Shown here: piece by piece, positions 8,628 to 62,051 of the stretch | How the letters are laid out: each line of letters starts with the position of its first letter | Position numbering within the stretch: position 1 is the stretch's first letter | DNA from: Trifolium pratense | Taxonomy: Eukaryota > Streptophyta > Magnoliopsida > Fabales > Fabaceae | Assembly (NCBI RefSeq): GCF_020283565.1 | Contig: NC_060060.1 | Location: 47,666,015-47,730,014 of the forward strand | DNA: 64,000 nt | Direction: 5' to 3' | Program-made: the position numbers and the translations under genes | Notes under the pieces: model-generated | Seen by the model: the letters and a program-made list of their open reading frames with translations, nothing else | Told to the model about the DNA's origin: nothing | Database searches by the model: none

Positions 8628-9024
8628 TGTTGGGAAAGATAACACAAAACACACCTAATACAAGGTCGGCGGATGATTGATTATCCCTGGATCAAACTTT
8701 TCCCACTATAATAATAATAATAACAATAACAATGGAATAACAAGAATTTCTTCTGTTTAATTGAATAATAATACAAATTGATTATTACAACTCTCACCAA
8801 CAAATATGGTGGATAACCTCTCTTTTGGATTTGCTCTCAAAAGGATTTCTTCACACTCTGATGATTTGAAATGAAAACATAAGGAAACAATTTATAGTGC
8901 AATGCATGTAAAGTGAATGGCTCTGAGAAGTTTCAGTATTTTCACTCACTAGCTAAAAACACTCTCATACTATTAATTTCAATTACTAAAATTAATAGTG
9001 ATATGCCTTCTTCCTCTCTCCACA
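8628..9024 (-). repeat. 3' LTR of the copia element
   Basis: Reads TGTTGGGAAAG to CTCTCTCCACA on the + strand. 397 bp, three bases shorter than its partner because of one missing ATA unit. Confidence 0.95.
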
Positions 9025-9059
9025 TAATGAGGAATACCTTTCAATCTCCCCCTTCCGAT

Positions 9060-18205: not shown

Positions 18206-18255
18206 TGTAATAAAAGTTAAAATGTGTGGTGATGAGCCGAAGCTCTGATACCACT

Positions 18256-18655
18256 TGTTGGGAAAGATAACACAAAACACACCTAATACAAGGTCGGCGG
18301 ATGATTGATTATCCCTGGATCAAACTTTTCCCACTATAATAATAATAATAATAACAATAACAATGGAATAACAAGAATTTCTTCTGTTTAATTGAATAAT
18401 AATACAAATTGATTATTACAACTCTCACCAACAAATATGGTGGATAACCTCTCTTTTGGATTTGCTCTCAAAAGGATTTCTTCACACTCTGATGATTTGA
18501 AATGAAAACATAAGGAAACAATTTATAGTGCAATGCATGTAAAGTGAATGGCTCTGAGAAGTTTCAGTATTTTCACTCACTAGCTAAAAACACTCTCATA
18601 CTATTAATTTCAATTACTAAAATTAATAGTGATATGCCTTCTTCCTCTCTCCACA
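18256..18655 (-). repeat. 5' LTR of the copia element
   Basis: 400 bp; TGTTGGGAAAG to CTCTCTCCACA on the + strand. It contains the minus-strand TATAAATT at 18520-18527, a candidate promoter for gag-pol. Confidence 0.94.
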
Positions 18656-18656
18656 T

Positions 18657-18856
18657 AAAGATGGAATTTGAATACTGCGCTAATTGGCTTAATGAGCCGA
18701 ATAGACGAGTTTCAATTAATTAATTTCAGGTGAAGTAACAGTTAAATGTATGTAACATTGAGGTCTTTTTGACTATAATCATAGACTTGGATGCTTCTTT
18801 CCTACAGTTGCATATAATGTTCTTTCTTGCATAGATTTTGATGCAAGAGTTCTATG
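18657..18856. repeat. 200-bp direct repeat flanking the copia element, right copy
   Basis: Identical by eye to 8428-8627. After it the duplicated spacer continues as in the PPR3 unit (from about 39478). Confidence 0.85.
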
Positions 18857-19168: not shown

Positions 19169-21271
19169 TGTAACACCCCGAACTAACTACCCTTAAAAAC
19201 GTGATCTTAAAAACTTTTTAAAGATAAGTAGCCGGAGCGCTACGGAAAAACATTTTCAAAAACGATCGTGCACATGACACGAAACGTCGCAGCGGAAAAC
19301 ATAACATAAAGGATTTTCAAAGCAATGAACAAAATAGTTCAAAAGATAAATCATTAACATAAAACATAAGTTAAGATGTTCGCATCGATATACGACGGAA
19401 TACAAACGATCCCCGACTCGATGTTACAAACTACCAGAGCACTAATATACATCTCAACCAACTAAACTTAACAAAACTATACAAAGGTAGCCTACACTAG
19501 CTCCTCACCAAAAGTGCTCCACACCAAAACGATCTACAGCTAAAGCTCGATCGAAACCTCGACCTGAATACCTGAACCCCCAAAGGTCCAGCACATAACA
19601 AATAGGTAGAGAGTTAGTAAACATAATCACATACATACGAATATAGAAACGCACCTATATTCAACCTATCACATAATACTAACTCACACACATGCTTCCA
19701 TAAGCAACACACCAGATAACACATACTCACAAATACACAACCAGATAGTTTCGCGTCGTTTCGGACCACACAAAGAACTCACATAACACATAACACATAA
19801 TTGCACATTTACTCAAATGCGACTAATGCCAAACATTCAATGTCATGCCAACCTAGACACGACTAATGCATGTGGTACCATCTTCTTTATCAAGGAACTT
19901 ACCATTGATATCCTTCTTTATTGGACAAGTCCAATATCCTTCTTTATCAGACAAGTCTGATATCCCTAAGTAATGCATGAATTTATGAATGTCATGCATT
20001 TACCAAACATATGATAATCACGTAGCACGAAGCTACAGCTCACTACATGGATAACATAATCCATTAAACTTCTTTATCAGACAAACTGATATTCTTCTTT
20101 ATCGGACAACCCGATATACAAAAATACATATACTTCTTTGACATTTTATATAAATGCCATTACACAACACAATTATTAAACATGTATCAACAATCATGCA
20201 AGGATACCCTTAAACCATGTTACAAGTGTCTAATTGCATTTAAAACAATTATCAAAAAGTTGCTGTCACAGAGCTGTTCGCTGAGCGAATCCGTAGCGAA
20301 CCCGTAGCGAACACGTAGCGAACACGTAGCGAACACGTTCGCTGTAGCGAACAGGTAGCGAACTACATCAGAGGGTTACAGGTACATGGCGAACATGTAG
20401 CGAACACGTAGCGAACTTATTCGCTAAGCGAATCCGTAGCGAATCCGTAGCGAACTTATTCGCTAAGCGAATCCGTAGCGAATCCGTAGCGAACTACACC
20501 AGAAAATATCTGTTCTTGAGTTTCTAAGGCGGTTTAACATTGATTCCACTCAAAAATACATCTAAACATGTTATAAATGCATAACAAGTGATCAATCATG
20601 TATATACCATACATATATACATGAATCAACAATCAAAAACACCAAAACACATCACACATACAAAATCATGTCAATTTCTTGCAAAATAAGCAAAGTTGCA
20701 TAAACATGCAAAACCATCATCAAACATAAACATATTCCCTCCTAGATGTTCATTAAGCATACTAAGATGAAAAGACATGTTTATGATAAAGAAACTTCAC
20801 CCAAAACCCCAAAGAAATTGGATGAGAGAGTTTAGGAATGGAGGCTAGACACCTCCCCTCTCTTGGATCACCCAAGCTTATGCTTAACCACTCTCACCTT
20901 AGATTGAATGATGATTCTTGCCTCTAAACCTCTTCTCCTTGCTCGAGTTCTTCTTGCCAAAACCCTAGCTTAGCTTGTTCTTGCTCCTAAGCTTACAACT
21001 TCTAACTTCTCATGAAAAATGAATTGTGAAACTATTCATGGCTTTGACTTGGTTACTTATACTACTCTCCAATTCTCTTGGTTCAAGCCCAACTTGCCTA
21101 AGCCCACTAAGCTTCTATCACACGCCCAAGCCCACTAACACGACAAAGGTTTCGCTCACAAACTTATGTTCGCGATAAATAATCATAGGTCGCGTAAATA
21201 AATATTTAACACTAACCCAAAATATATGCAAATATATAAAATATCGATTTACTAAAAATCGGGTCGTTACA
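19169..21271 (-). repeat. 3' LTR of the gag-only element
   Basis: TGTAACACCCCG to CGGGTCGTTACA. Contains the GTAGCGAAC repeat region at 20278-20500, with one more 11-bp unit than its partner. Confidence 0.94.
20278..20500. repeat. 11-bp CGTAGCGAACA repeat cluster in the LTR
   Basis: About a dozen copies of CGTAGCGAACA or CGTAGCGAATC, mixed with the inverted form TTCGCT, so that TTCGCTAAGCGAA and GTTCGCTGTAGCGAAC palindromes form. Same cluster at about 23490-23700 in the partner LTR with one unit fewer. Function unknown. Confidence 0.85.
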
Positions 21272-21337
21272 ACTCTACCCCCCTTAAAAGAATTTCGCCC
21301 TCGAAATTACCTAAGAGATAAAACAGAGAACGAACCC

Positions 21338-22258
21338 TCAACGCGGCATCTTCGGTTTCTTGCATACCGGACTCTTGTGACCTTCCTCGCCACAATTGAA
21401 ACAAAACACTTTCACCCGACAAGCATCGGCCTTGTGCCCAAACTGTCCACAATTGAAACACTTGTCGCTTTTCCTCGGGCAATCATATGACATATGACCC
21501 CGCTCTCCACATTTGTAACAACTTCCACTTCCTTGCTTCTTCTTTCCACTTCCATTACCCTTGTTCTCATACGGCTTACTACGATCCAAACCTTTTCCTT
21601 TCCTATCATTCAGAACCTTATAGTAGTTGGTCTTGGCTTTGCTATCTTCATCACAAATCCTTGCCTTGGTCATAAGGGTCGGAAAATCCCTGATTTCAGA
21701 AAATCCAATCAAAAGCTTGATATCCGGACGAAGTCCACTCTCGAACTTGACACACTTATCCTCTTCGGCTTCCACCGTGTTGTAGTGTGGACTAAACACA
21801 CACAAAGCTTCAAACTTAGCCGAATACTCGGCGACTGATAAATTTCCTTGCTTGAGCTCCATGAACTCGATCACTTTCTTATTCTTCACATCAGCCGGAA
21901 AATACTTCCTTAAAAATTCCCTTTTGAAAGTTTCCCAAACGATAGCAACACCGTCCACTCCTATCCTGAGTCTCACATTCCTCCACCAAACGATTGCCTC
22001 CTCTCTAAGGGCATAAGTTCCCAAAGTAGTCTTGTTCTCCTCAGAACAACACATTGCTTCAAAGATGATCTCAACCTCATCTAACCACTTGATAGCCCCC
22101 TCCGGGTTATAGCCACCGGTAAACAGAGTCGGTTTATGCGACATAAACCTTTCCAATCTTTTCTCACTATCCCTTCCCGGGTCATTATCCCTTACCACCA
22201 ATGTAGTCAAAGCAGTCAAAGCTTGTGCAATCTGAGCGTTGGTCCTAGCAGCAGCCAT
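21338..22258 (-). CDS. Retrotransposon Gag protein with three zinc knuckles (Ty3/gypsy type)
   Basis: 306 residues from the Met at 22258 (MAAARTNAQI); an in-frame Met six codons upstream (22276) is an alternative. The middle matches the plant Ty3/gypsy Gag core: FMSHKPTLFTGGYNPEGAIK, then EEAIVWWRNVRLR, then FKREFLRKYFPADVKNKK and ELKQGNLSVAEYSAKFEAL. The C terminus carries three CCHC knuckles (CYKCGERGHMSYDC, CFNCGQFGHKADAC, CFNCGEEGHKSPVC) that would bind element RNA. It is intact. Gag is retained while pol is absent, so this element probably makes its own particles but borrows enzymes from a related autonomous element. Confidence 0.92.
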   Translation of the reverse strand: MAAARTNAQIAQALTALTTLVVRDNDPGRDSEKRLERFMSHKPTLFTGGYNPEGAIKWLDEVEIIFEAMCCSEENKTTLGTYALREEAIVWWRNVRLRIGVDGVAIVWETFKREFLRKYFPADVKNKKVIEFMELKQGNLSVAEYSAKFEALCVFSPHYNTVEAEEDKCVKFESGLRPDIKLLIGFSEIRDFPTLMTKARICDEDSKAKTNYYKVLNDRKGKGLDRSKPYENKGNGSGKKKQGSGSCYKCGERGHMSYDCPRKSDKCFNCGQFGHKADACRVKVFCFNCGEEGHKSPVCKKPKMPR

Positions 22259-22381
22259 GATTCCTGAACGAATCACAACTCGACGTTAGAATGTATTAAC
22301 AGTGTACCCAACACATGCTTCATACAAGAGAAAGAAAATCCTAATGGCTCACATGAACCGACCTGCTCTGATACCAACTAT

Positions 22382-24473
22382 TGTAACACCCCGAACTAAC
22401 TACCCTTAAAAACGTGATCTTAAAAACTTTTTAAAGATAAGTAGCCGGAGCGCTACGGAAAAACATTTTCAAAAACGATCGTGCACATGACACGAAACGT
22501 CGCAGCGGAAAACATAACATAAAGGATTTTCAAAGCAATGAACAAAATAGTTCAAAAGATAAATCATTAACATAAAACATAAGTTAAGATGTTCGCATCG
22601 ATATACGACGGAATACAAACGATCCCCGACTCGATGTTACAAACTACCAGAGCACTAATATACATCTCAACCAACTAAACTTAACAAAACTATACAAAGG
22701 TAGCCTACACTAGCTCCTCACCAAAAGTGCTCCACACCAAAACGATCTACAGCTAAAGCTCGATCGAAACCTCGACCTGAATACCTGAACCCCCAAAGGT
22801 CCAGCACATAACAAATAGGTAGAGAGTTAGTAAACATAATCACATACATACGAATATAGAAACGCACCTATATTCAACCTATCACATAATACTAACTCAC
22901 ACACATGCTTCCATAAGCAACACACCAGATAACACATACTCACAAATACACAACCAGATAGTTTCGCGTCGTTTCGGACCACACAAAGAACTCACATAAC
23001 ACATAACACATAATTGCACATTTACTCAAATGCGACTAATGCCAAACATTCAATGTCATGCCAACCTAGACACGACTAATGCATGTGGTACCATCTTCTT
23101 TATCAAGGAACTTACCATTGATATCCTTCTTTATTGGACAAGTCCAATATCCTTCTTTATCAGACAAGTCTGATATCCCTAAGTAATGCATGAATTTATG
23201 AATGTCATGCATTTACCAAACATATGATAATCACGTAGCACGAAGCTACAGCTCACTACATGGATAACATAATCCATTAAACTTCTTTATCAGACAAACT
23301 GATATTCTTCTTTATCGGACAACCCGATATACAAAAATACATATACTTCTTTGACATTTTATATAAATGCCATTACACAACACAATTATTAAACATGTAT
23401 CAACAATCATGCAAGGATACCCTTAAACCATGTTACAAGTGCCTAATTGCATTTAAAACAATTATCAAAAAGTTGCTGTCACAGAGCTGTTCGCTGAGCG
23501 AATCCGTAGCGAACCCGTAGCGAACACGTAGCGAACACGTTCGCTGTAGCGAACAGGTAGCGAACTACATCAGAGGGTTACAGGTACATGGCGAACATGT
23601 AGCGAACACGTAGCGAACTTATTCGCTAAGCGAATCCGTAGCGAATCCATAGCGAACTTATTCGCTAAGCGAATCCGTAGCGAATCCGTAGCGAACTACA
23701 CCAGAAAATATCTGTTCTTGAGTTTCTAAGGCGGTTTAACATTGATTCCACTCAAAAATACATCTAAACATGTTATAAATGCATAACAAGTGATCAATCA
23801 TGTATATACCATACATATATACATGAATCAACAATCAAAAACACCAAAACACATCACACATACAAAATCATGTCAATTTCTTGCAAAATAAGCAAAGTTG
23901 CATAAACATGCAAAACCATCATCAAACATAAACATATTCCCTCCTAGATGTTCATTAAGCATACTAAGATGAAAAGACATGTTTATGATAAAGAAACTTC
24001 ACCCAAAACCCCAAAGAAATTGGATGAGAGAGTTTAGGAATGGAGGCTAGACACCTCCCCTCTCTTGGATCACCCAAGCTTATGCTTAACCACTCTCACC
24101 TTAGATTGAATGATGATTCTTGCCTCTAAACCTCTTCTCCTTGCTCGAGTTCTTCTTGCCAAAACCCTAGCTTAGCTTGTTCTTGCTCCTAAGCTTACAA
24201 CTTCTAACTTCTCATGAAAAATGAATTGTGAAACTATTCATGGCTTTGACTTGGTTACTTATACTACTCTCCAATTCTCTTGGTTCAAGCCCAACTTGCC
24301 TAAGCCCACTAAGCTTCTATCACACGCCCAAGCCCACTAACACGACAAAGGTTTCGCTCACAAACTTATGTTCGCGATAAATAATCATAGGTCGCGTAAA
24401 TAAATATTTAACACTAACCCAAAATATATGCAAATATATAAAATATCGATTTACTAAAAATCGGGTCGTTACA
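22382..24473 (-). repeat. 5' LTR of the gag-only element
   Basis: 2092 bp, near-identical to 19169-21271. One 11-bp unit shorter. Confidence 0.94.
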
Positions 24474-25624: not shown

Positions 25625-26188
25625 TGCACTTAAGACAATATCTCTCTATGTTGAATTTATATTAAAACAATAAGTAAATTCTAATATGGATCACTTCGTC
25701 AAGTGGTTCATGGTGGACCGGTTATGAATAACATTATAACAAATACGAATTTTATAAAATCCACTATTAGATTGAAAGTTTATATCATATAGATCATCCA
25801 TAGAAAAATTTAGAAAAATTGTACCAAAAAAAAAAGAAAATTTTAGAAAAATTGAAAATCATTTTATATGTTATTGAGACTCGTCAAAAAAGTGAGGTGA
25901 ACTAAAGTGAGGTGACGTGACAAAAAATAGTTAACATTAATTGATTGATAGTATAAAATTATTTTATACTATGGTTACATATTTTTTTTTTCTCATAAAT
26001 AAATTAGGCGACCCTTTAAATAAATGGTAAAAAATATGCAATGTCCACCCTGTCCCACTAAACTATTCATTTGGTTTGCCTTGAAATGAAATCACAAAGT
26101 AAAGTTTGTTTTGAAACAGTCCTAACCTCCGCTCTAACCTTCGTCGTTGCCGCTCCTTTCTCACAACCACGCCACGCAGCAAGGAATT
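25625..26188. other. Upstream region of PPR2
   Basis: Holds one arm of a decayed foldback element (25680-25870), a TGACGTGAC motif at 25913-25921 shared with the PPR3 and PPR4 upstream regions, and the leader. An upstream ATG at 26086 opens a 51-codon frame ending at 26241, overlapping the PPR2 start in another frame. Confidence 0.6.
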
Positions 26189-27820
26189 ATGTCGCCTATG
26201 AGATTAACAAGGTTTCTTTCAAAACCCTCTTTACTTCCTAACTTTTTCACTTTCAGATTTTTGTCTCATTTTCACAATGTTAGTGATGTTGTTGATGATG
26301 ATTCTATTTACATGTTCAATCGAATGCTAAATATGCGAAAAACCCCTTCCATTATTGAATTTAACAAGATTTTAAGTTCCCTTGTTAAAACAAAGAACAA
26401 TTACTCAACTGTTATTTCCCTTTTCCAACAAATGGAATTCCGTGGAACAATTAGGCCTAACATTATTACTATGTCCATTTTAATCAATTGTTACTGTCAT
26501 ATAGGTCAAATGACTTATGCATTTTCTCTATTGGGAAAGATTCTTAAGATGGGTTATCAGCCGGATGTCGTAACCTTGACAACCCTTATAAAAGGCCTTT
26601 GTCTTAATAATGACATTCAGAAAGCATTGTACTTTCATGATGATCTTATCGCTAAGGGTTTTCAGCTCAACCAGGTTAGTTACGGGACATTGATCAATGG
26701 GTTGTGTAAAATGGGACATACAACACCTGCCCTCCAACTGTTGACAAGACTCGAACAAGGATCAGTAAAGCCTAATTTGGTAATTTACAGTACAATCATT
26801 GATAGCATGTGCAAAGATAAGCTTGTAGATGATGCTTGTCAATTATTTTCTGAAATGGTTATCAAGGGTATTTCGCCTACTGTTGTCACTTATAGGGCTC
26901 TAATCTATGGTTTTTGTATTGTCAGTCAATTAAAACAAGCTGTTGTTTTATTGAACGAAATGGTATTGAGAAACATCAACCCAGATGTTTATAGCTTTAC
27001 TATATTGATTGATGCGTTTTGTAAAGAGGGAAAGATGAAAGAAGCTAAAAGTATGTTAGCTGTGATGATGAAACAAGCTGTTGATGATGTAGTTACTTAT
27101 AATACTTTAATGGATGGGTTCTGCCTTCGTAATGAAGTGAAAAAGGCAATACATATATTTAACACTATGATTCAAAGGGGAGTGATGCCCGATGTTAAGA
27201 GCTACAGTATTATGATCAATGGGTTCTGTAAGAGTGAAATGGTGGATGAAGCCATCAAACTCTTTGAAGAAATGTATTTAAAAAATATTATTCCTAATAC
27301 AGTAACATACAACACTCTTATTGATGGCTTGTGCAAATCAGGGAGAATTGCATATGCTTGGGAGCTTGTAGATGAGATGTGTGACAGAGGCCAACCGCCC
27401 AATGTAATCACCTACAATTCCTTCTTGCACACTTTGTGCAAAAATCATGAACTTGACAAGGCAATTGCATTAGTCAAGAAAATTAACGACCAAGGTATCA
27501 TGCCAAATTTGTACACGTACAGTACCCTAATTGATGGACTTTGCAAAGGTGGGAGGCTTAATGATGCACTAAAGGTTTTTAATGATCTTTTGGCTAAAGG
27601 ATACAATCTAGATGTCGTAACGTACACAACTATGATTTGTGGACTTTGTAATGAGGGCTTGTTTGAAGAAGCATTTGTTTTGCTGTCAAAAATGGAAGAT
27701 AAGGGCTGCTTTCCTGATGCTGTCACTTTTGAAATAATGATTTGTGCACTCTTCGAAAGCGGTGAGAATGATAAAGCAGAGAAACTTCTACGTGAAATGA
27801 TTGCTAGAGGTCTACTATAA
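26189..27820 (+). CDS. PPR2: restorer-of-fertility-like PPR protein
   Basis: Intronless, 543 residues from ATG 26189 (MSPMRLTRFLSKPS). The frame is open upstream from a TTG, but the conserved methionine of the paralogues is this one. Residues 1-45 are basic and hydroxylated, fitting a mitochondrial presequence. From about residue 50 there are 14 P-class PPR motifs of 35 residues, each a helix pair such as VVTYNTLMDGFCLRNEVKKA, with no E, DYW or SMR domain. P-class RFL proteins bind mitochondrial RNAs and often steer cleavage or block translation of CMS-linked transcripts; that role here is inferred. One codon is missing in motif 7 relative to PPR3 (KQAVDD for KQGMKPD), so that motif has 34 residues. 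It stands alone, with no operon context. Confidence 0.95.
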   Translation: MSPMRLTRFLSKPSLLPNFFTFRFLSHFHNVSDVVDDDSIYMFNRMLNMRKTPSIIEFNKILSSLVKTKNNYSTVISLFQQMEFRGTIRPNIITMSILINCYCHIGQMTYAFSLLGKILKMGYQPDVVTLTTLIKGLCLNNDIQKALYFHDDLIAKGFQLNQVSYGTLINGLCKMGHTTPALQLLTRLEQGSVKPNLVIYSTIIDSMCKDKLVDDACQLFSEMVIKGISPTVVTYRALIYGFCIVSQLKQAVVLLNEMVLRNINPDVYSFTILIDAFCKEGKMKEAKSMLAVMMKQAVDDVVTYNTLMDGFCLRNEVKKAIHIFNTMIQRGVMPDVKSYSIMINGFCKSEMVDEAIKLFEEMYLKNIIPNTVTYNTLIDGLCKSGRIAYAWELVDEMCDRGQPPNVITYNSFLHTLCKNHELDKAIALVKKINDQGIMPNLYTYSTLIDGLCKGGRLNDALKVFNDLLAKGYNLDVVTYTTMICGLCNEGLFEEAFVLLSKMEDKGCFPDAVTFEIMICALFESGENDKAEKLLREMIARGLL

Positions 27821-29861
27821 GAGCAATACTCGGTATAACGCTCTCTTGTTACATGTCGTTATTTTCAATTTTTATGATAATCTTCGTGAAATGATTGCTT
27901 ATCAGTTATTTGTTTACTGTTATTAAATTACTGTGGTAATAGTGATAGTTGTATTTTCTGTTTTGAGTTTTCTATTACACCTTATTGTGTATCGGTAATT
28001 GTTCAATGCCCGATATATGTAGTGTTAGAAATACCAGAGTTACCAGATCTCTTGATTGTACAACCTCGATTTCCCATCATTTCTTCGTTTTTCATTGAAA
28101 ACTGATAGTATTACAGGTATTAAATTGTTATATGTGGATCCATTCCAAGGAGTTTAGGTTTGTAATGGTCTTGTTGCTACTGATTGTTGGGGATATCTAA
28201 TGTTTATAAATAATCAGGGCTTAAGTGGTAGTTTATTAGGATAGCCGTCCAATCTCTCTAAGCATCGAGCCTTTTCTTTTCTCAGCTTCCTTTATCATTA
28301 TGCCGTTTTCCTATTTAGAGTGAGCAGCATAATATGAGAGAACTTTGAATAATTTTCTAATGCTAATTCAACAAGAAAATATACTTGTTATTCAACAGGT
28401 TAGAAGCTTGGTTGAGGATGGTGCTTTACTTCATATATGGTTTTGGCTGCAATATACTTGCAAATTATGCAGTCGAAGATGTGTTCATTTTTTTGAAGTC
28501 TCTAATAACAAGTCACATCATAGAGTGGAACATAAACATGAGCATTTTTTCCCTGCTTCCACTATTGTTATCTAGGAAGCTACAATCATGGAAACTACAG
28601 CTCTATGTTTTTGTTGGACTACTACTACTACTATATGTCCCAGTAAATATGATTATCTCTCAGTATTGTCTAATTTGTAATTCTGGAATTCCAACTTGAT
28701 ATGATATTATATGTATTTTTACCTTTGTTCTGAAGGGTTCTGCTGCTAATTGTGAACAATGGACCTTGTAACATTATTTTCTTAAGCTTTTTGATGAAAT
28801 GTATAATACTTTCTGGTGAGGTGCTGAAGAAGTTGGTTTTCAAATGTCAAAAGATGGAATTTGAATACTGCACTAATTGGCTTAATGAGCCGAATAGACG
28901 AGTTTCAATTAATTAATTTCAGGTGAAGTAACAGTTGAATGTATGTAACATTGAGGTCTATTTGACTATAATCATAGACTTGGATGCTTCTTTCTTACAG
29001 TTGCATATAATGTTCTTTCTTGCATAGATTTTGATGCAAGAGTTCTATGTAGATAGAACCCTTCGATTTGCGAATGTATAAAAAAATGTGTTTTTACATG
29101 TATACTTCAGAAATAACTTTTGGTTACTTGTTAAATATTCGGTTTATGACTTGAGAACATAAGTAATGCAGTGGTTAATTTTTCCTTAATATAATGTTAT
29201 TTTTTTAGTGTAAATTTTACACTAATAAATATTCAGTTTCTAAAAACCAAATTTTTGCGCGCTAGAGGGGCCTAAAAGAAACATTCGGGGCATAAAGAGA
29301 AGTCATCTGTATTCTTTTGTAGTAGGGAGGCTGTTAGTTGTTTTGTTGTTCCTGCAATGTATCAGGTGGACTTGGTTTTGTGAATTTGCACCCCTCGTGC
29401 ATTATTCACTTTTAATATATTTTTTGCTTCTTCAAAAAAATGATGATATGAACCTTCACACTCTTTTATAGTTTATGCTTGACTAAATTGTTTTGGTGAA
29501 GCCAAGTTATGCATATTACTTCTTTTTTTTATTGGATACAGTTATGTATATTACTTTATTATTAATGTTATGTGGTATTTTGTCCGTCTAAAATCTGATC
29601 TTTTTGGCTTTTTAGTTTTGTCCCAAAATTTTAGTCTTTTTAAGAAACCAATGTACAATGAATAATGTTTTACCATTTGTACCCTTGCAAAAACTAATAC
29701 ATTCATTAAATGAATTTTTTCTTTCTTAATAATAAAGTAAGGGTAAAAATGACATAACTTATTAATCTCTATTCTTTCTTAATCAATGTGCAAAACTCTA
29801 CAAGGAGCAAAGTTTTTGACCGGAGGGAGTAAAAATTTGACAATAATTGTTAAATATTTAT
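27821..29861. other. Downstream region of PPR2, no convincing gene
   Basis: Shares blocks with the DNA after PPR1, PPR3 and PPR4. Frames at 28345-28699 are short, AT-rich and not conserved in the paralogous copy after PPR4 (about 52230-52560), so I do not call a gene. A decayed Stowaway-like stretch lies at about 29575-29830. Confidence 0.6.
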
Positions 29862-34691: not shown

Positions 34692-34835
34692 TGAAATGAA
34701 ATCACAAAGTAAAGTTTGTTTTGAAACAGTCATAACCTCCTTTTCCAGCTCCTCCGGTAACACACGAAAGACTCCACCGCTCTAACCTTCGTCGTTGCCG
34801 CTCCTTTCTCAAACACACCCACGCAGCAAGGAATT

Positions 34836-36470
34836 ATGTCACCTATGAGATTAACAAGGTTTCTTTCAAAACCCTCTTTACTTCCTAACTTTTTCACTTT
34901 CAGATTTTTCTCACATTTTCACAATGTTAGTGATGTTGTTGATGATGATTCTATTTATATGTTCAAAAGTATGCTAAATATGCGAAAAACCCCTTCCATT
35001 ATTGAATTTAACAAGATTTTAAGTTCCCTTGTTAAAACAAAGAACAATTACTCAACTGTTGTTTCCCTTTTCCAACAAATGGAATTCCATGGAACAATTA
35101 GGCCTAACATTATTACTATGTCCATTTTAATCAATTGTTACTGTCATATAGGTCAAATGACTTATGCATTTTCTCTATTGGGAAAGATTCTTAAGATGGG
35201 TTATCAGCCGAATATCGTAACCTTGACAACCCTTATAAAAGGCCTTTGTCTTAAAAATGACATTCAGAAAGCATTGTACTTTCATGATGATCTTATCGCT
35301 AAGGGATTTCAGCTCAACCAGGTTAGTTACGGGACATTGATCAATGGCTTGTGTAAAATGGGACATACAACACCTGCCCTCCAACTGTTGAGACGGCTCG
35401 AAAAAGGATCAGTCAAGCCTGGTTTGGTAATTTACAGTACAATCATTGATAGCATGTGCAAAACTAAGCTTGTAGATGATGCTTGTGAATTATTTTCTGA
35501 AATGGTTAACAAGGGAATTTTTCCAGACGTTGTCACTTATAGTGCTCTAATCTATGGTTTTTGTATTGTGAATAAATTAAAAGAAGCAATTGTTTTGTTG
35601 AACGAAATGGTATCGAAAAACATCAACCCAAATGTTTATACCTTTAATATATTGATCGATGCGTTTTGTAAGGAGGGAAAGATGAAAGAAGCTAAAAGTG
35701 TGTTAGCTATGATGATGAAACAAGGCATGAAACCTGATGTAGTTACTTATAATACTTTAATGGATGGGTTCTGCCTTCGTAATGAAGTGAGCAAGGCCAA
35801 ATATATATTCAACACTATGGTCCAAAGGGGAATGATGCCCAATGTTAAGAGCTACAGTATTATGATCAATGGGTTCTGTAAGAGTAAAATGTTGGATGAA
35901 GCCATCAATCTCTTTGAAGAAATGCATTTCAAAAATATCTTTCCCGATACGGTAACTTACAGCACTCTTATTGATGGCTTGTGCAAATCAGGGAGAATTT
36001 CCTATGCTTGGGAGCTTGTTGATGAGATGAGTGACAGAGGTCAACAACCCGATGTAATCACCTACAATTCCTTCTTGTACACTTTGTGCAAAAATCATGA
36101 ACTTGACAAGGCAATTGCATTAGTCAAGAAAATTAAAGACCAAGGTATCATGCCAGATTTGTACACGTACAGTACCCTAATTGATGGACTTTGCAAAGGT
36201 GGGAGGCTTAATGATGCACTAAAGGTTTTTAATGATCTTTTGGCTAAAGGATACAATCTAAATGTCGTAATGTACACAACTATGATTTGTGGACTTTGTA
36301 ATGAGGGCTTGTTTGAAGAAGCATTTGTTTTGCTTTCAAAAATGGAAGATAAGGGCTGCTTTCCTAATGCCTTCACTTTTGAAATAATGATTTGTGCACT
36401 CTTCGAAAGCGGTGAGAATGATAAAGCAGAGAAACTTCTACGTGAAATGATTTCTAGAGGTCTACTATAA
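34836..36470 (+). CDS. PPR3: restorer-of-fertility-like PPR protein
   Basis: Intronless, 544 residues from ATG 34836 (MSPMRLTRFLSKPS). Presequence-like N terminus, then 14 P-class PPR motifs from about residue 50 to 544, the last being AFTFEIMICALFESGENDKA. The protein is nearly the same as PPR4 over the first ten motifs and as PPR1 at the C terminus, a mosaic pattern. Expected role: mitochondrial RNA binding; target unknown. A MULE inserted upstream has separated part of the shared promoter region from the gene. An upstream ATG frame (from 34696) ends before the start codon, so it would be a short non-overlapping uORF. Confidence 0.95.
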   Translation: MSPMRLTRFLSKPSLLPNFFTFRFFSHFHNVSDVVDDDSIYMFKSMLNMRKTPSIIEFNKILSSLVKTKNNYSTVVSLFQQMEFHGTIRPNIITMSILINCYCHIGQMTYAFSLLGKILKMGYQPNIVTLTTLIKGLCLKNDIQKALYFHDDLIAKGFQLNQVSYGTLINGLCKMGHTTPALQLLRRLEKGSVKPGLVIYSTIIDSMCKTKLVDDACELFSEMVNKGIFPDVVTYSALIYGFCIVNKLKEAIVLLNEMVSKNINPNVYTFNILIDAFCKEGKMKEAKSVLAMMMKQGMKPDVVTYNTLMDGFCLRNEVSKAKYIFNTMVQRGMMPNVKSYSIMINGFCKSKMLDEAINLFEEMHFKNIFPDTVTYSTLIDGLCKSGRISYAWELVDEMSDRGQQPDVITYNSFLYTLCKNHELDKAIALVKKIKDQGIMPDLYTYSTLIDGLCKGGRLNDALKVFNDLLAKGYNLNVVMYTTMICGLCNEGLFEEAFVLLSKMEDKGCFPNAFTFEIMICALFESGENDKAEKLLREMISRGLL

Positions 36471-37547
36471 GAGCAAAACTCGGTATAACACTCTCTTGTT
36501 ACATGTCGTTATTTTCAATTTTTATGATTATCTTCGTGAAATGATTGCTTATCAGTTATTTGTTTGCTGTTATTAAATTACTGTGGTGATAGTTGTATTT
36601 TCTGTTTTGAGTTTTCTATTACACCTTATTGTGTATCGGTAATTGTTCAATGCCCGATATATGTAGTGTTAGAAATACCAGAGTTAGCAGATCTCTTGAT
36701 TGTACAATCTCGATTTCCCATCATTTCTTCGTTTTTCATTGAAAACTGATAGCATTACAGGTATTAAATTGAAAAAGATGGAATATGAATACTGCACCAG
36801 AGCCACTGTGGCAACAACTAAGTTATTGTATATGTCAATAAGCCAGTTTCAATTAATTAGTTTCAGGTGAAGTAACAGTTGAATGTATGTAACAATTGAG
36901 ATCTATTTGACTATAAGCGTAGACTTGGCTGCTTCTTTCTTACAGTTGCATATAATGTTCTTTCTTGCATAGATTTTGATGTAAGAGTTCTATGTAGGTA
37001 GAAGTAGAACCCTTCGATTTGCGGATGTATAAAAAAAAGTATTTTTACTGAATGTATAATTCAGAGATAACTTTTGGTTATGTTGTTAAATATTTGGTTT
37101 ATATATGACTTTAGAACATTGTAAATGCAGTGGTTAATTTTTCCTTAATATAATTTTTTTTAACTAATTAAGAGCACAAGAAATTAGTTAAGGGGAAAGG
37201 TGTTCACTCAAATGGAGCTCAATCATGTTACTTTGATTGTTGCATAAGATGTTACTTCATGTCTAGGGTGCCTTACCTCAAGAACTTCTGCAAGGACCAA
37301 AGTCTAAGACATAGAATGAAGAAAATAGATTGTCACATCATCTCATAAAATTTATATTAATTCATTGTATTAATCAAGTGATGAAGGCTTCACCAGTATC
37401 CACTTTAATTATTGGTGAAAACCATTCCGTTTTAGTGAGCACCAAGTGACCGTAATCCCTAATACAAAGACCAATACCCAACTTGTTATGTAGACTTGAA
37501 AATGAGGCAGCATTTGTATCGTCCCGAAGTCAGTTTAAACCATCTAG
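36471..37547. other. Downstream region of PPR3, no gene
   Basis: Copy of 5250-6762 with about 440 bases deleted at 36771. No coding region seen. Confidence 0.7.
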
Positions 37548-49738: not shown

Positions 49739-49870
49739 CACTAAACTATTCATTTGGTTTGCCTTGAAATGAAATCACAAAGTAAAGTTTGTTTTGAAAC
49801 AGTCCTAACCTCCGCTCTAACCTTCGTCGTTGCCGCTCCTTTCTCAAACACACCCACGCAGCAAGGAATT

Positions 49871-51505
49871 ATGTCACCTATGAGATTAACAAGGTTTCTT
49901 TCAAAACCCTCTTTACTTCCTAACTTTTTCACTTTCAGATTTTTCTCACATTTTCACAATGTTAGTGATGTTGTTGATGATGATTCTATTTATATGTTCA
50001 AAAGTATGCTAAATATGCGAAAAACCCCTTCCATTATTGAATTTAACAAGATTTTAAGTTCCCTTGTTAAAACAAAGAACAATTACTCAACTGTTGTTTC
50101 CCTTTTCCAACAAATGGAATTCCATGGAACAATTAGGCCTAACATTATTACTATGTCCATTTTAATCAATTGTTACTGTCATATAGGTCAAATGACTTAT
50201 GCATTTTCTCTATTGGGAAAGATTCTTAAGATGGGTTATCAGCCGAATATCGTAACCTTGACAACCCTTATAAAAGGCCTTTGTCTTAAAAATGACATTC
50301 AGAAAGCATTGTACTTTCATGATGATCTTATCGCTAAGGGATTTCAGCTCAACCAGGTTAGTTACGGGACATTGATCAATGGCTTGTGTAAAATGGGACA
50401 TACAACACCTGCCCTCCAACTGTTGAGACGGCTCGAAAAAGGATCAGTCAAGCCTGGTTTGGTAATTTACAGTACAATCATTGATAGCATGTGCAAAAAT
50501 AAGCTTGTAGATGATGCTTGTGAATTATTTTCTGAAATGGTTAACAAGGGAATTTTTCCAGACGTTGTCACTTATAGTGCTCTAATCTATGGTTTTTGTA
50601 TTGTGAATAAATTAAAAGAAGCAATTGTTTTGTTGAACGAAATGGTATCGAAAAACATCAACCCAAATGTTTATACCTTTAATATATTGATCGATGCGTT
50701 TTGTAAGGAGGGAAAGATGAAAGAAGCTAAAAGTGTGTTAGCTATGATGATGAAACAAGGCATGAAACCTGATGTAGTTACTTATAATACTTTAATGGAT
50801 GGGTTCTGCCTTCGTAATGAAGTGAGCAAGGCCAAATATATATTCAACACTATGGTCCAAAGGGGAATGATGCCCAATGTTAAGAGCTACAGTATTATGA
50901 TCAATGGGTTCTGTAAGAGTAAAATGTTGGATGAAGCCATCAATCTCTTTGAAGAAATGCATTTCAAAAATATCTTTCCCGATACGGTAACTTACAGCAC
51001 TCTTATTGATGGTTTGTGCAAATCAGGGAGAATTTCGTATGCTTGGGAGCTTGTAGATGAGATGTGTGACAGAGGCCAACCGCCCAATGTAATCACCTAC
51101 AATTCCTTCTTGCACACTTTGTGCAAAAATCATGAACTTGACAAGGCAATTGCATTAGTCAAGAAAAGTATCAACCAAGGTATCATGCCAAATTTGTACA
51201 CGTACAGTACCCTAATTGATGGACTTTGCAAAGGTGGGAGGCTTAATGATGCACTAAAGGTTTTTCATGATCTTTTGGCTAAAGAATACAATATTAATGT
51301 TGTAACGTACACAACTATGATTTGTGGACTTTGTAATGAGGGCTTGTTTGAAGAAGCATTTGTTTTGCTGTCAAAAATGGAAGATAAGGGCTGCTTTCCT
51401 AATGCCTTCACTTTTGAAATAATGATTTCTACTCTCTTTGAAAGAGGTGAGAATGATAAAGCAGAGAAACTTCTTCGTCAAATGATTGCTAGAGGCCTGC
51501 TATAA
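49871..51505 (+). CDS. PPR4: restorer-of-fertility-like PPR protein
   Basis: Intronless. From ATG 49871 (MSPMRLTRFL) 544 residues, matching PPR3. An in-frame ATG at 49769 would add 34 residues (MKSQSKVCFETVLTSALTFV), a frame that is not open in PPR2 or PPR3, so I prefer 49871. Presequence-like N terminus followed by 14 P-class PPR motifs. Motifs 1-10 are almost PPR3, while DEMCDRGQPPNVITYNSF is as in PPR2, and motifs 11-14 have private changes (KKSINQGI, NINVVTYTTM, ISTLFERGE). Expected to bind mitochondrial RNA; target unknown. The DNA downstream (to about 52880) resembles that of the other copies but is more diverged. Confidence 0.95.
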   Translation: MSPMRLTRFLSKPSLLPNFFTFRFFSHFHNVSDVVDDDSIYMFKSMLNMRKTPSIIEFNKILSSLVKTKNNYSTVVSLFQQMEFHGTIRPNIITMSILINCYCHIGQMTYAFSLLGKILKMGYQPNIVTLTTLIKGLCLKNDIQKALYFHDDLIAKGFQLNQVSYGTLINGLCKMGHTTPALQLLRRLEKGSVKPGLVIYSTIIDSMCKNKLVDDACELFSEMVNKGIFPDVVTYSALIYGFCIVNKLKEAIVLLNEMVSKNINPNVYTFNILIDAFCKEGKMKEAKSVLAMMMKQGMKPDVVTYNTLMDGFCLRNEVSKAKYIFNTMVQRGMMPNVKSYSIMINGFCKSKMLDEAINLFEEMHFKNIFPDTVTYSTLIDGLCKSGRISYAWELVDEMCDRGQPPNVITYNSFLHTLCKNHELDKAIALVKKSINQGIMPNLYTYSTLIDGLCKGGRLNDALKVFHDLLAKEYNINVVTYTTMICGLCNEGLFEEAFVLLSKMEDKGCFPNAFTFEIMISTLFERGENDKAEKLLRQMIARGLL

Positions 51506-53038
51506 GAGTAAATACATGTATGTCTTTTTCTAGTTATCCAATGTTATTTTGAATTTTAATTATAATCATCGTGAAATGATTTCTTATCAGTTATTTGTTT
51601 GCTGTTATTAATTTACTATGGTAAATAGTGATAGTTGCATTTTATGTTTTCTATTAGTACACCCGATTGTGTATCGGTAATTGTTCAATGCCCTATATAT
51701 GTAGAATCTCGATTTCCCTTCTTTTCTTTGTTTTTCATTGAAAACTGATTGTATTACAGGTATTAAATTCTTATATGATGATCCAAGGAGTTGAGTTTTG
51801 TAATGGTCTTGTTGCTACTGATTTTTTTGGTTATCTAATGTTTATAATTAATCAGGGCTTAAGTGGTAGTTTATTAGGATAGTCGTCCAATCTGTGTAAG
51901 CACGAGCCTTTTCTTTCCTCCGCTTCCTTTATCATTATGCCGTTTTCCCATTTTTAGTAATAAAAGAACCAGCAGTAAGACCAAACTTAGAGTGAGCAGC
52001 ATAATATGAGAGAACTCTCTAATGATGGACAGAATACAAATAATCGAGAAAAAAAAACTGAATAACGGCATGCTAATCACATATAAATACAATGTCTGCC
52101 TTATCCTTCCTCTCTCATATAAGAACACAAAAATAATTTTCTTTTGAATTGCCAGATATACATATACTTTTGAATAATTTTCTTATGAAGTTGGTCTCTG
52201 CCATTATATAGACTATTATTCTTTGTGCTATGCTAATTCAACAAGAAAATATATTTGTTATTCAACTTGGTTGACGATGGTGCTTTACTTCATATATGGT
52301 TTTGGCTACAATATACTTGACAATTATGCAGTCGAAGATGTGTTAAATTTTTCGTCTCTGTTACTGTCAATATTTTTTTAAGTCTCAAATAACAAGTCAC
52401 ATAGAGTGGAACATAAACATGAGCATTTTTTCCCTTCTTCCACTATTGTTAGCTAGAAAGTTAAATCATGGAAACTACAGCTGAGTTTTATAGTTGTACT
52501 ACTACTATATGTACCATTAAATTGGATTAACTCATTATTGTCTAATTTGTGATTCATGAATTCCAACTTGATATTATATGTATTTTACCTTGGTTCTGAA
52601 GGGTTCTGCTGCTAATTGGGAACATGGACCTTGTAACATTGTGTTACTATTAATACTGTAACATTGAAGTCTTGACTAATAGACTTGGCTGCTTCTTTCT
52701 TACAGTTGCATATATTTCTTTCTTTTGACTATAATGTTCTTTCTTGCATAGGTTTTGATCTAAGAGTTCAATGTAAGTAGAACCCTTCGATTTGCGGATG
52801 CATAAAAAAAAGTGTTTTTACCATTAATATTTTTTGGTTATCTTGTTAAATAATTGGTTTATGACTTTAGAACATTGTAAATGCAGTGGTTTTCTTATGG
52901 AAACAAAAGTTCTTCCCAACTCATGTCTCTCTATCACAACTTATTTCCACTTACAAAAAATTGATGATAAACTACTTGAAAGACGACGTCGTTGAGTTCG
53001 TGCGTGGCTTTCTTCTTGCTGCGAACAAGAAGAAGAAA
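51506..53038. other. Downstream region of PPR4, no gene
   Basis: Diverged copy of the regions after PPR1 and PPR2. From about 52890 it switches to the leader of a second PPR subtype, with the palindrome ACGACGTCGT at 52983-52992. Confidence 0.65.
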
Positions 53039-53076: not shown

Positions 53077-53370
53077 TCATGTGATGGCTTAAACAACCAC
53101 CAAAGAATCCACATTCAATTCCACATGCGAAAAATTAAAACTTCTAGCATAAATGAGTCCTTCAAAAATTCTCCAAAACTCTGCTAAATACGCACTACCA
53201 AAGCCGACAAGTTTAGCAAATCCACCCAAGCATTAACCATCACTCCCTCTAATAATTCCATCACATCCAATCGAGCCATCTTCACTACGAGCCCCATCCG
53301 TATTCAATCTAACCAAATTCTCTATATTTGTATGGGATTTGTACTTTTCGCACTCTCTGCAATGTCTCAG
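53077..53370 (-). pseudogene. LINE RNase H relic, split by an LTR element
   Basis: On the minus strand the sequence reads NLVRLNTDGARSEDGSIG, then GGFAKLVGFGSAYLAEFWRI and HVELNVDSLVVV, the RNase H-like end of plant LINE pol, with frame breaks. The upstream part continues at 55215 beyond the LTR element inserted at 53371. Confidence 0.72.
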
Positions 53371-53773
53371 TGACGCAGAACGGAAGCGTGAAGGTTAGCA
53401 AAACGCTAAACCTAATTGATAAAGACAAGCCGCAAGCACAAACTTGTCAAAATAGGGTTTCGGAGTCCACCGAAAGAGTAATTTGGAATCCACCAAATTT
53501 GGGAAAATTCTCTGAATTTTTATTGAATCAAAAGGTTGCCTTCAAGGCTACAATAATTTAGTTTAAATAGGAGTGAAAAATAAAATTAACAAATCTCCTA
53601 AAAGATTGTAAAAATAAAAACAACAAACCTAGCTAAATAAAAATTACAAATCTACCTAAAATATAAAAAAATAACTAACCTAGGTGAAATATAAAAATAA
53701 GAAATCAACCTAAAATATAATAAAACTAAATCTAACTAAAATAATAATATACACAAGAAATCCTCCTACATCA
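53371..53773 (-). repeat. 3' LTR of the importin-carrying element
   Basis: 403 bp; the captured-gene frame runs on into it and stops at 53710. Confidence 0.93.
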
Positions 53774-54759
53774 GTCTCCTCTACCTCAAAAGAACTCGTC
53801 CCCGAGTTCTCGTCTTGATAAAGAGCTTCCTTTGCAGGTTGACTCCTCCAATGAACAAGAGACCACCCTCCTGGATCCCATTGAATGAAGTGAGAGGACC
53901 TGTCTCGTGTCAACACATCCAAACGAGGTATTAGAATATCTGGGGTGCAATTCTCAGTGAAGTTTAGCACTGCAGAAGCAGCATGAGCCTGTACTCGAGC
54001 ATTTTCAAAATCATCCATGGCACCAGCTAATGCCGAAAGCACTAAGTGGTGATATTTAACTTGCAAGTCTGGCCCTAAATCTGTGGACAACTGCCCAATT
54101 GCGTTTATAGTCGTCCATCGCACCCTAGGGTGTGGGTGAGAAAATGAATTCAAAACCATTGACAATACATGCTCCAGATTCTTTGTCATCACTTTTGAAC
54201 AACCCTCTGCAATTTGTGCGATGGCAACGAGCGCAGCATTGTGCTTTTGCCATTCAGGGGAAACCAAGTAAGTCGGCAACAACTCAGACGCAACCGGCAC
54301 AATCGTGTTCCCACCCAAAGAAATTGAAAGTCTGTCCAAACATTCCTGTCCAAATCCATAGTTAGTTGTCTCACCAGCATCCTCATCCTCGGTCAGTGCA
54401 GCATGCCAAGCAGGATCAACTTCAATATCCAGCAAGGAATCAGGGTAAGTTTGTTTGCATAAATTGAAGAGATTTTCGGCTTGGTAACGGTGGTCGTTGG
54501 AGGTTGACATGAGATTTGTAATTAGGGATTCGAAGTGAGTGGAATCTTGGCCGAGAATTAACGCCATCTGAGTTTGGTTGTTTGGATCGTTGGCGGCGGC
54601 CATGGTGAGAGAGGCGGTGGCGGAGGAATTGAATTGAGTTTTTTGAGTGGTGGTGTTGTTGGATAACTTTGTCACCTGTGTTGTCAGAGCTGTGATGGCC
54701 GCGGTTAAAGCCGTCATGGCACCGTAAAACTCTGCTTTCGTCACCGGGTGATCTCCCAT
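53710..54759 (-). CDS. Chimeric frame: Gag-like start fused to importin-beta-3 (importin-5) pieces
   Basis: 349 residues. Residues 1-40 (MGDHPVTKAEFYGAMTALTA) look like the start of an element Gag. Then comes a translated 5' UTR-like stretch and what looks like the native importin start, in a strong context (CACCATGGCC near 54602), with MALILGQDSTHFESLITNLM and QAENLFNLCKQTYPDSL. The frame jumps without break to a later part of the same protein: EDEDAGETTNYGFGQECLDR, SLGGNTIVPVASELLPTYL, HPRVRWTTINAIGQLSTDLG, AHAASAVLNFTENCTPDIL. These are HEAT-repeat segments of plant importin-5/karyopherin beta-3, a nuclear import receptor. Introns are absent, so capture was from mRNA, with an internal loss of a few hundred residues. 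About 60 residues after CTPDIL are not recognised; the last 21 are LTR. It lacks most HEAT repeats, so transport activity is unlikely. Confidence 0.85.
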   Translation of the reverse strand: MGDHPVTKAEFYGAMTALTAAITALTTQVTKLSNNTTTQKTQFNSSATASLTMAAANDPNNQTQMALILGQDSTHFESLITNLMSTSNDHRYQAENLFNLCKQTYPDSLLDIEVDPAWHAALTEDEDAGETTNYGFGQECLDRLSISLGGNTIVPVASELLPTYLVSPEWQKHNAALVAIAQIAEGCSKVMTKNLEHVLSMVLNSFSHPHPRVRWTTINAIGQLSTDLGPDLQVKYHHLVLSALAGAMDDFENARVQAHAASAVLNFTENCTPDILIPRLDVLTRDRSSHFIQWDPGGWSLVHWRSQPAKEALYQDENSGTSSFEVEETDVGGFLVYIIILVRFSFIIF

Positions 54760-54806
54760 CTGATCACGTTAGAAAAAGAACAGGAGAAACCTGCTCTGAT
54801 ACCAAC

Positions 54807-55209
54807 TGACACAGAACGGAAGCGTGAAGGTTAGCAAAACGCTAAACCTAATTGATAAAGACAAGCCGCAAGCACAAACTTGTCAAAATAGGGTTTCGGA
54901 GTCCACCGAAAGAGTAATTTGGAATCCACCAAATTTGAGAAAATTCTCTGAATTTTTATTGAATCAAAAGGTTGCCTTCAAGGCTACAATAATTTAGTTT
55001 AAATAGGAGTGAAAAATAAAATTAACAAATCTCCTAAAAGATTGTAAAAATAAAAACAACAAACCTAGCTAAATAAAAATTACAAATCTACCTAAAATAT
55101 AAAAAAATAACTAACCTAGGTGAAATATAAAAATAAGAAATCAACCTAAAATATAATAAAACTAAATCTAACTAAAATAATAATATACACAAGAAATCCT
55201 CCTACATCA
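54807..55209 (-). repeat. 5' LTR of the importin-carrying element
   Basis: 403 bp. A TATTTAAA box lies on the minus strand at about 54998-55005. Confidence 0.93.
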
Positions 55210-55214
55210 CTCAG

Positions 55215-59432: not shown

Positions 59433-60512
59433 ATGTCATCACTGTTTATGAGATTAACAAGGTTTCCTTCAAAACCCTTTTTTCCCTTTACTTTAAGGTT
59501 ATTCTCTCACTCTCACAATGTTAATGATGCTATTTACTCATTCAATCGAATGCTACAAATGCTTAATACTCCTTCCATTATTGAATTTACCAAGATTTTA
59601 GGTTCTCTTGTTAAAACAAAGAACAATTACTCAACTGTTATTTCCCTTTTCCAACAAATGGAATTCCGTGGAATTAAGCCTAACATTATTACTATGTCCA
59701 TTTTAATCAATTGTTACTGTCACGTAGGTCAAATGACTTATGCATTTTCTCTATTGGGAAAGATTCTTAAGATGGGTTATCAGCCGAATATCGTAACCTT
59801 GAATACCCTTATCAAAGGTCTTTGTCTTAATAATGAGGTTCAGAAAGCATTGTACTTTCATGATGATCTTATCGCTAAGGGATTTCAGTTGGACCATGTT
59901 AGTTACGGGACATTTGATCAATGGGTTGTGTAAAATGGGACATACAACACCTGCCCTCCAACTGTTGACAAGACTCGAAAAAGGATCAGTAAAGCCTGAT
60001 GTGATGATGTATAATACAATCATTGATAGCATGTGCAAAGATAAGCTTGTAGATGATGCTTGTCAATTATTTTCTGAAATGGTTATCAAGGGTATTTCGC
60101 CTACTGTTGTCACTTATAGTGCTCTAATCTATGGTTTTTGTATTGTCAGTCAATTAAAACAAGATAGGAATGCCAACAATCGAATGCTACAAATGCGTAA
60201 TACTCCTTCCATTATTGAATTTACCAAGATTTTAGGTTCTCTTGTTAAAACTAAGAACAATTACTCAACTGTTATTTCCCTTTCTCACCAAATGGAATTC
60301 CATGGAATTAGGTCTGACATTTTCACTATTACAATTTTGATCAATTGTTACTGTCATATAGGTCAAATGACTTGTGCATTTTCTCTATTGGGAAAGATTC
60401 TTAAGATGGGTTATCAGCTGGATGTAGTAACCGTGAATACCCTTATCAAAGGTCTTTGTCTTAATAATGAGGTTCAGAAAGCATTGTACTTTCATGATGA
60501 TCTTATCGCTAA

Positions 60513-62051
60513 GAGTGTGTTTGGATGAGGGATTCTAGAAATTTAAGGGATTTTAAATACTAAGCAATTCAATTGATTCAATTGAATTCCCTTGATTTTC
60601 AAATTCCAGTGTTTGGATAAAGTGTTGAAATTCCATCAATTGTAAAATTCTTTGTTTGGGTAATGTAATTGAATTTCCTTCATTTAATTTTATTTATTTT
60701 AATAAAATCGACCCTAAATCCAAAAATTGGCCGAAAAACCGAAAAAATCGGTCAAAAACCATAAATCGGCTGAAAACCTAAAATCGACTATAAACCATAA
60801 AATCGGCCGAAAAACCTAAAATCGGCCGAAAACCATAAAATCGACCGATAATCCGAAAAAATCGGCCGTAAAACCTAAAATCGGCCAAAAATCCTAAAAT
60901 CGACAGTAAACACAAAATCGGCTGAAAAACCTAAAATCGACCAAAAGCCCTAAAATCGACTATAAACTCTAAAATCGGCTGAAAACCCAAAAAATTAATC
61001 GAAAACCCAAAAATCGACCGTAAACCCAAAAAATTGACCGAAAAACATAAAATCGGCGAAAAATCCAAAAATCGATTAAAACCCTAATATCGGCTGAAAA
61101 ATGGGTTTATAGTCGATTTTAGGTTTTTCGGCCGATTTTGGGGTTTATAGCCGATTTCAGGATTTTTGGTCGATTTTAGGTTTTCCGCTGAGTTTTTTGG
61201 GTTTAGGGACGATTTTAGATTCTTCGGCCGATTTTTTGGATGTTGGCCGATTTTGGGTTTTCGGTCGATTTTTGGTTTTTCAGCCGATTTTTTGGGTTTT
61301 CGGCTGATTTTAGGATTTATAGTCTATTTTAGGTTTTTTTGCCGATTTTTCGGGTTTCCGGCTGATTTTAGGTTTTCGGCCGATTTTTTGGGTTTTCGGT
61401 CGATTTTTTGTTTTTCGGCCGATTTTTTTGGTTTTCGGCCGATTTTAGGGTTTGTAGTCGATTTTTTGAATTTTGGTCGATTTTTCGGGTTTCCGGCCGA
61501 TTTTAGGGTTTATAGTCGATTTTTTTGATTTTGGCCGATTTTAGGTTTTCGGCCGATTTTTTGGGTTTTCGGTCGATATTTGGTTTTTCGGCCGATTTTT
61601 TGGATTTTCAGCCGATTTTAGGGTTTATAGGTGATTTTTGAAATTTTGGTCGATTTTAGGTTTTTCTGCTGTTTTTTTGAGTTTTCGGCCGATTTTAGTG
61701 TTTATAGTCGATTTTTGGGCTTTTGGCCGATTTTAGGTTTTTTCTGACGATTTTTTGGATTTTCGGCCGATTTAGCGTTTATCGTAGATTTTAAGTTTTT
61801 CGGCTAATTTTAGGTTTTACGATCAATTAGTAATTTTTAAAAGTTTATGGAGAAGAATGAATTTCAAATTCTTTGGTTTTATGTGTCATTTTGAAATTCT
61901 CTAAATTAAACTTGAACAAAATACTTCATAAATTTCCATCATTTTGAAAATTCTTCAAATTTTCATCCAAACAATGGAATTCATCTCAAATCATTTGAAT
62001 TCTCTCAAAACATTACTTTACCTCAAAAAATTCCCTCATCCAAACACACTC
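60513..62051. mobile_element. Harbinger-like foldback element in PPR5
   Basis: 1539 bp. Perfect terminal repeat GAGTGTGTTTGGATGAGGGA at the left and its complement at the right; target duplication TAA (60510-60512 and 62052-62054), typical of PIF/Harbinger. No transposase. The interior is two opposed arrays of a 20-26 bp unit: AAAATCGGCCGAAAAACC-type on the left (about 60710-61100) and GGTTTTCGGCCGATTTTAGG-type on the right (about 61105-61800). Confidence 0.9.
60710..61800. repeat. Inverted minisatellite arms within the Harbinger-like element
   Basis: Degenerate repeats of CGATTTTAGGGTTTTCGGC, about 15 copies left in one orientation and about 27 right in the other, able to form an extended stem. 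The + strand frame at 61166-61528 is a by-product of the repeat. Confidence 0.88.

Follow-up and report, generated by a model that had tools for sequence, protein, structure and literature searches.

A non-autonomous LTR retrotransposon of red clover (Trifolium pratense), moved in trans, has probably captured the mRNA of a host importin-5 by template switching, and the resulting chimera has then spread. The copy described here occupies positions 53371–55209, on the minus strand, of the window (the whole 64-kb stretch of DNA that was analysed). It is a complete small LTR retrotransposon of 1839 bases with host coding sequence between its LTRs, the arrangement by which a retroduplicated gene in an LTR element is recognized.

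Structure and age of the insertion

The element, all of whose features lie on the minus strand, is bounded by direct LTRs of 403 bp with TG...CA ends, the 3′ copy at 53371–53773 and the 5′ copy at 54807–55209; alignment shows 401 of the 403 bases to be identical, with the two mismatches at LTR positions 5 and 132. Between them lies an internal region of 1033 bases, with a primer binding site, TGGTATCAGAGC, at 54793–54804, two bases inwards of the 5′ LTR, which we take to be of the initiator tRNA-Met type, and a GA-rich tract, GAGGTAGAGGAGAC, at 53774–53787, which abuts the 3′ LTR and which, from the usual role of this motif, we assume to be the polypurine tract. On both outer sides stands the target site duplication CTCAG (53366–53370 and 55210–55214), a 5-base match that chance would give approximately once in 1024 cases. 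These are the features that define an LTR retrotransposon (direct TG..CA LTRs, a short target duplication and, at the ends of the internal region, a primer site and a polypurine tract), and the original prediction, which had named the LTRs, the duplication, the primer site and the purine tract, is borne out by the sequence. It is scarcely conceivable that chance LTR-like repeats surround an unrelated importin pseudogene here, or that the arrangement is an artefact of assembly; we found no support for either idea, and the exact target duplication, the primer site and the purine tract speak against both, as does the fact that separate T. pratense proteins contain this chimera.

The insertion is recent, as the original prediction had claimed. 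At 1.3 × 10−8 per site per year, the rate applied in PMC5664825, the 2/403 LTR differences correspond to an age of approximately 0.19 My, with an upper bound of approximately 0.7 My. Within the 64-kb window there is no further copy of the 403-bp LTR, and, in a search of the window for an empty-site copy of the flanks, no match besides the locus itself reaches the insertion point. Scans for viral contigs gave nothing: two stretches fitted a pattern, neither of them confirmed, and the other scans returned none.

The element lies approximately 300 bases from sequence that resembles the beginning of a PPR frame (59433), and PPR genes and remnants extend from 58 to 60513 in duplicated segments approximately 87–96% identical (58–1383, 26126–28127, 34774–36666, 49809–51704 and 59446–60513), the PPR domain having been assigned on one frame of the cluster. 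A young LTR element at 19169–24473 has 2.1-kb LTRs that are 99.4% identical, a CAATG duplication and an internal part of approximately 1.1 kb, whose listed frame encodes a Gag of 312 aa with zinc knuckles; in this it resembles the TR-GAG elements. A Copia-type element at 8628–18667, with an LTR pair of approximately 410 bp (98.8% identical), is split by the repeat pair 11026–13289 and 13895–16145, which are 98.1% identical with approximately 600 bases between them.

One frame joins a Gag start to importin-5

In the list of open reading frames, a frame of 349 codons (53710–54759, stop included) begins 33 bases past the primer site and stops inside the 3′ LTR. It is the only frame in the element longer than 77 residues, the remaining listed frames within the internal region being of 77 and 65 aa, so that the claim of a sole long frame, open over 349 codons, stands. 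Codons 1–35 (54655–54759; MGDHPVTKAEF...LSNN) form a Gag-like start, a part of the original prediction that we can confirm because the red clover Gag protein P0133 has a near-identical start ahead of a Retrotrans_gag domain (E 4.6e-12); the element shares this start with the P0133 lineage, but has these 35 codons only, without the Gag domain itself. The next 51 bases, codons 36–52 (17 codons; 54604–54654), are leader-like and precede the importin start. Relatives with other middles differ at this position, where P0070, P0091, P0121 and P0132 show NNNRNYNN-type sequence instead, and codons 36–52 are best read as a putative host 5′ leader. Alignment to Vicia importin-5 (P0135) then places importin-5 piece 1, from MAAANDP to residue approximately 55, at codons 53–109 (54433–54603), and piece 2, residues approximately 332–504 of P0135, at codons 110–281 (53917–54432). 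Codons 282–349 (53713–53916), the last of them within the 3′ LTR, make up a tail (VLTRDRSSHF...FEVEETDVGG...) that, whole or at its end, is common to proteins with other middles.

When the 349-aa product was searched against Pfam, Importin_rep_4 and HEAT repeats were found above the cut-offs, and no Gag, reverse transcriptase, RNase H, integrase or protease appeared among the 14 matches at E up to 1. The element therefore lacks the complete Gag and Pol of an autonomous Ty3/gypsy element, and also the complete Gag domain that is the sole frame of a TR-GAG element, Retrotrans_gag being absent from the product by Pfam. Because it encodes no enzymes, we conclude that it would have moved in trans.

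The importin-5 similarity foreseen in the original prediction was recovered in protein searches, both among plant importin-5 proteins and in the PDB, where phmmer matched the 349-aa product to chain 6xu2_A, named Importin-5, at E 8e-42. Two separated pieces are indeed fused in frame: piece 1, which matches residues 2–55 of the 1117-aa Vicia protein, is identical to it at 41 of 55 positions and piece 2 at 150 of 173, and the gap between them amounts to 276 codons (828 bases). The captured part spans 687 bases, 229 codons of uninterrupted coding sequence with a native-type start codon and the leader-like sequence ahead of piece 1, which agrees with the native start context proposed before. A canonical splice was considered as the origin of the 828-base gap and is unlikely, since Vicia and Cicer read S-L-I-L there and, if the TCC TTG codons of the element are native, the joint would have no GT.

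In a tree of 23 sequences, which contained no clover importin-5, the captured sequence is placed beside Vicia with a support of 0.78, and the two join Cicer with 0.96, which makes a legume importin-5 from this clade the donor. A Hibiscus protein that bears the name EMB2734 and is described as KETCH1 falls into a second group of legume importin-5 proteins, apart from the captured sequence, and a functional match of the captured importin-5 to KETCH1, reported as the HYL1-interacting importin-beta of Arabidopsis (PMC5996484), is therefore uncertain.

The chimera is older than this copy

A search with the 349-aa protein, in which 7994 candidates were scored, gave 199 matches; among the best 120, the red clover proteins with an importin part are P0001, P0002, P0003 and P0004. 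P0001 is 97% identical to the window product, keeps the 349-aa frame and heads a cluster of 13 sequences; as members of a cluster may represent a single locus in several assemblies, this figure does not give the number of copies in the genome. P0001, P0002 and P0004 all show this joint between the importin pieces, and the importin chimera must therefore be older than the 53371–55209 copy and have multiplied since; capture by this young element itself, as first proposed, does not hold. P0003 agrees in start, leader and tail, and a further gap takes out its importin joint.

These proteins are gene models, and P0002 is a warning for the others. It was at first read as having a second deletion, a reading that we dropped, as the missing 168 bases correspond exactly to a GT...AG interval in the frame of the window element, opening with GTGAGACA after ATGCTG and closing with AATTGCAG before AGGGTT; with this cut 287 of 293 residues fit, and five neighbouring cuts are equally good. 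Given the exact GT...AG fit, a gene-model intron is likelier than a deletion, and a cryptic intron inside the captured importin exon may have been annotated, or may be used, in P0002. P0003 lacks two further stretches, for which the best cuts are not GT...AG (178 matches for the first gap vs 177 with GT...AG; an imperfect fit, 256/269, for the second), so deletions probably do occur in the LTR family. Beyond its importin piece, P0004 runs into a different downstream sequence that has no match in Pfam or the PDB and that may resemble a cytochrome P450; it is possible that the element is used there as an upstream exon.

Relatives carry other sequences in the same position

A search with the Gag-like start joined to the tail through X residues found 21 proteins among 139 candidates. 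P0070 has the tail of the window element and another middle, and P0112 (cluster of 10) likewise has the same tail and a different middle. In P0127 (cluster of 6) a TPX2 domain (E 1.2e-10) stands with a related start and only the last part of the tail, while P0124, from T. subterraneum, has an ABC-transporter piece and the tail without the start. XS zinc finger matches fall below the 22-bit cut-off in the middles of P0112 (21.8 bits), P0114 (18.9) and P0123 (19.0), and the middles of P0070, P0091, P0121, P0126 and P0132 gave no Pfam match at E values up to 0.1. Five of these proteins (P0070, P0091, P0112, P0114 and P0127) share the ending FL-Y-IILVRFSFIIF. In the window element these residues are encoded where the LTR begins, and the five proteins therefore carry its LTR or a close one. 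The matches to P0129, P0130 and P0131 (jgi and ena sources) are confined to the tail. P0128, with a PAH domain, and P0129, with an exchanger domain, were not counted as captures, being perhaps neighbours joined by gene models.

P0112, P0127 and P0124, all from clovers, are separate candidate captures, although in P0124, where the tail is present and the start absent, there is some doubt whether the ABC-transporter piece is a joined neighbour rather than a capture. With TPX2, XS-finger-like and ABC-transporter middles beside the same start, tail or both, a single clover LTR lineage seems to capture repeatedly, and so to have taken up host sequence more than once.

Proposed route of capture

We propose that the element was moved by proteins supplied by a relative having Gag and Pol, the presumed helper, although no element combining this LTR with Pol was observed, and that host importin-5 mRNA, presumably already spliced, was present during reverse transcription. 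Close to the 3′ end of the element RNA, the enzyme would have switched templates at a short match, the codons for Y/H/R-L-D, copied the importin-5 mRNA backwards, skipping approximately 276 codons, and gone on towards the 5′ leader of the mRNA, before rejoining the element RNA within the Gag start, at its AAC codons. The 3′ importin junction does lie at Y/R-L-D codons, and, as read from amino acids and the sequence of the element only, IPYLDG of importin-5 resembles the tails of relatives (GGYLDV in P0091, GGHLDV in P0121); the 5′ junction lies within the Gag start, at AAC codons. Both junctions would fit short-match switching in minus-strand synthesis, and a start near the 5′ leader of the mRNA would fit a run-off jump. 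The captured piece has no poly(A) at its 3′ end, where it stops inside the coding region at LD and is followed by the element tail; this is expected of internal template switching. Having kept its LTRs, primer site and purine tract, the chimera would have stayed mobile and spread, and the copy at 53371–55209 would have been inserted recently, after the chimera had multiplied.

It is rather unlikely that the importin-5 exons were instead taken up as DNA, by illegitimate recombination or by a nested insertion followed by deletion, with no mRNA intermediate. A deletion in the genome could account for the internal gap of 828 bases, and the two extra gaps of P0003, best cut outside GT...AG, make deletions probable in the family; against this, the 229 codons are continuous coding sequence with a start codon and leader-like sequence, other gene pieces adjoin the same tail, and plant importin-beta genes usually carry introns, those of potato having two to 20 exons with one gene intronless (PMC7037939). 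Capture from mRNA by template switching is consequently the reading that we prefer.

Fate of the captured sequence

Compared with 21 importin-5 orthologs, the window copy is changed at 10 of 120 invariant positions (eight after removal of one at the alignment edge of the start and one at the 3′ junction) and P0001 at 11 of 120, some of the changes common to both perhaps already standing in the clover donor. Orthologs left out singly show zero to six changes at 114 to 126 positions, with 18 of the 21 at two or fewer, although an ortholog that has a close relative among the 21 will score low simply on that account. The contrast shrinks when the threshold is set at 90%, with 13 of 160 positions changed in each element copy and one to 10 of 154 to 165 in the orthologs, the highest being Lupinus (10) and A. 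lyrata (9). The window product and P0001 differ at 10 residues, nine of them in the 229 captured residues and one in the other 120, and the captured importin looks to be evolving under relaxed constraint.

A functional importin-5 has a full HEAT solenoid with its conserved residues, whereas the product holds approximately 229 of 1117 residues with conserved sites changed. An AlphaFold2 model of the 349-aa product has a mean pLDDT of 55, too weak for a fold search, and shows HEAT-like helices at residues 161–280 with block means of 58 to 85. The changed conserved sites and the low-confidence model make an importin function unlikely. For the same reasons, and because nine of the 10 differences from P0001 lie in the captured part, we consider it improbable that the product is a selected chimeric protein, whether an interfering fragment of importin-5 or a new gene, even though the frame is kept in P0001 and the modelled helices would suit such a role. 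It is possible that the captured piece has an siRNA effect on the donor gene, or acts as an interfering fragment.

Arabidopsis KETCH1, an importin-5 relative, imports HYL1, and we take the XS zinc finger, itself matched below the cut-off, to be of the SGS3/IDN2 kind. As pure speculation, to which we would give little weight, the lineage might be a standing vehicle for gene capture, with Gag start and 3′ tail constant and the middle swapped for host messages. Its frame might be held open into the LTR since translation aids packaging of its own RNA or escape from decay, and, as importin-5 and XS-finger cargoes touch small-RNA pathways, the pieces, as protein or as a source of siRNA, may weaken host silencing.

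Comparison with other captured plant genes

Among the open-licence papers listed in our searches, and in papers on the red clover genome and on Fabaceae LTR elements, we found no description of this LTR family. Like TRIM and TR-GAG elements, the clover element is small, non-autonomous and bounded by LTRs; unlike them, it contains host coding sequence and has no complete Gag domain.

Host genes in non-autonomous plant LTR elements are already known, and the clover importin-5 element is a new, well-preserved example. That plant LTR retrotransposons take up spliced mRNA is documented in PMC5664825 and PMC3726574. The former describes LTR elements with retroduplicated genes in pepper, potato, tomato and rice, which, like the clover element, have host sequence between the LTRs, and gives from 1398 (rice) to 3898 (potato) genes inside LTR elements across six genomes; for approximately 72% of the retroduplicated NLR genes of pepper, the surrounding element lacks gag or pol and hence moved in trans. 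What distinguishes the clover element from these systems is that the cargo is importin-5, in red clover, in frame with a Gag start and a family tail; its uninterrupted frame is consistent with intron loss. The captured genes counted in PMC3726574, 672 in rice and 1343 in sorghum, are from other hosts, and many of those in rice are reported as pseudogenes, whereas here the LTRs, outer junctions and frame are intact.

What goes beyond the original prediction is that one clover LTR lineage apparently carries several host cargoes beside the same start or tail. Such a family could reveal the frequency and the sites at which reverse transcriptase departs from the element RNA and comes back to it, and whether selection keeps the frame open across the cargo. 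A parallel is maize Bs1, described in the review PMC13317346, which also treats abnormal template switching, as a single LTR element that holds parts of three host genes and a chimeric gene; in Bs1 one element carries all of the genes, whereas in the clover lineage different members carry different genes.
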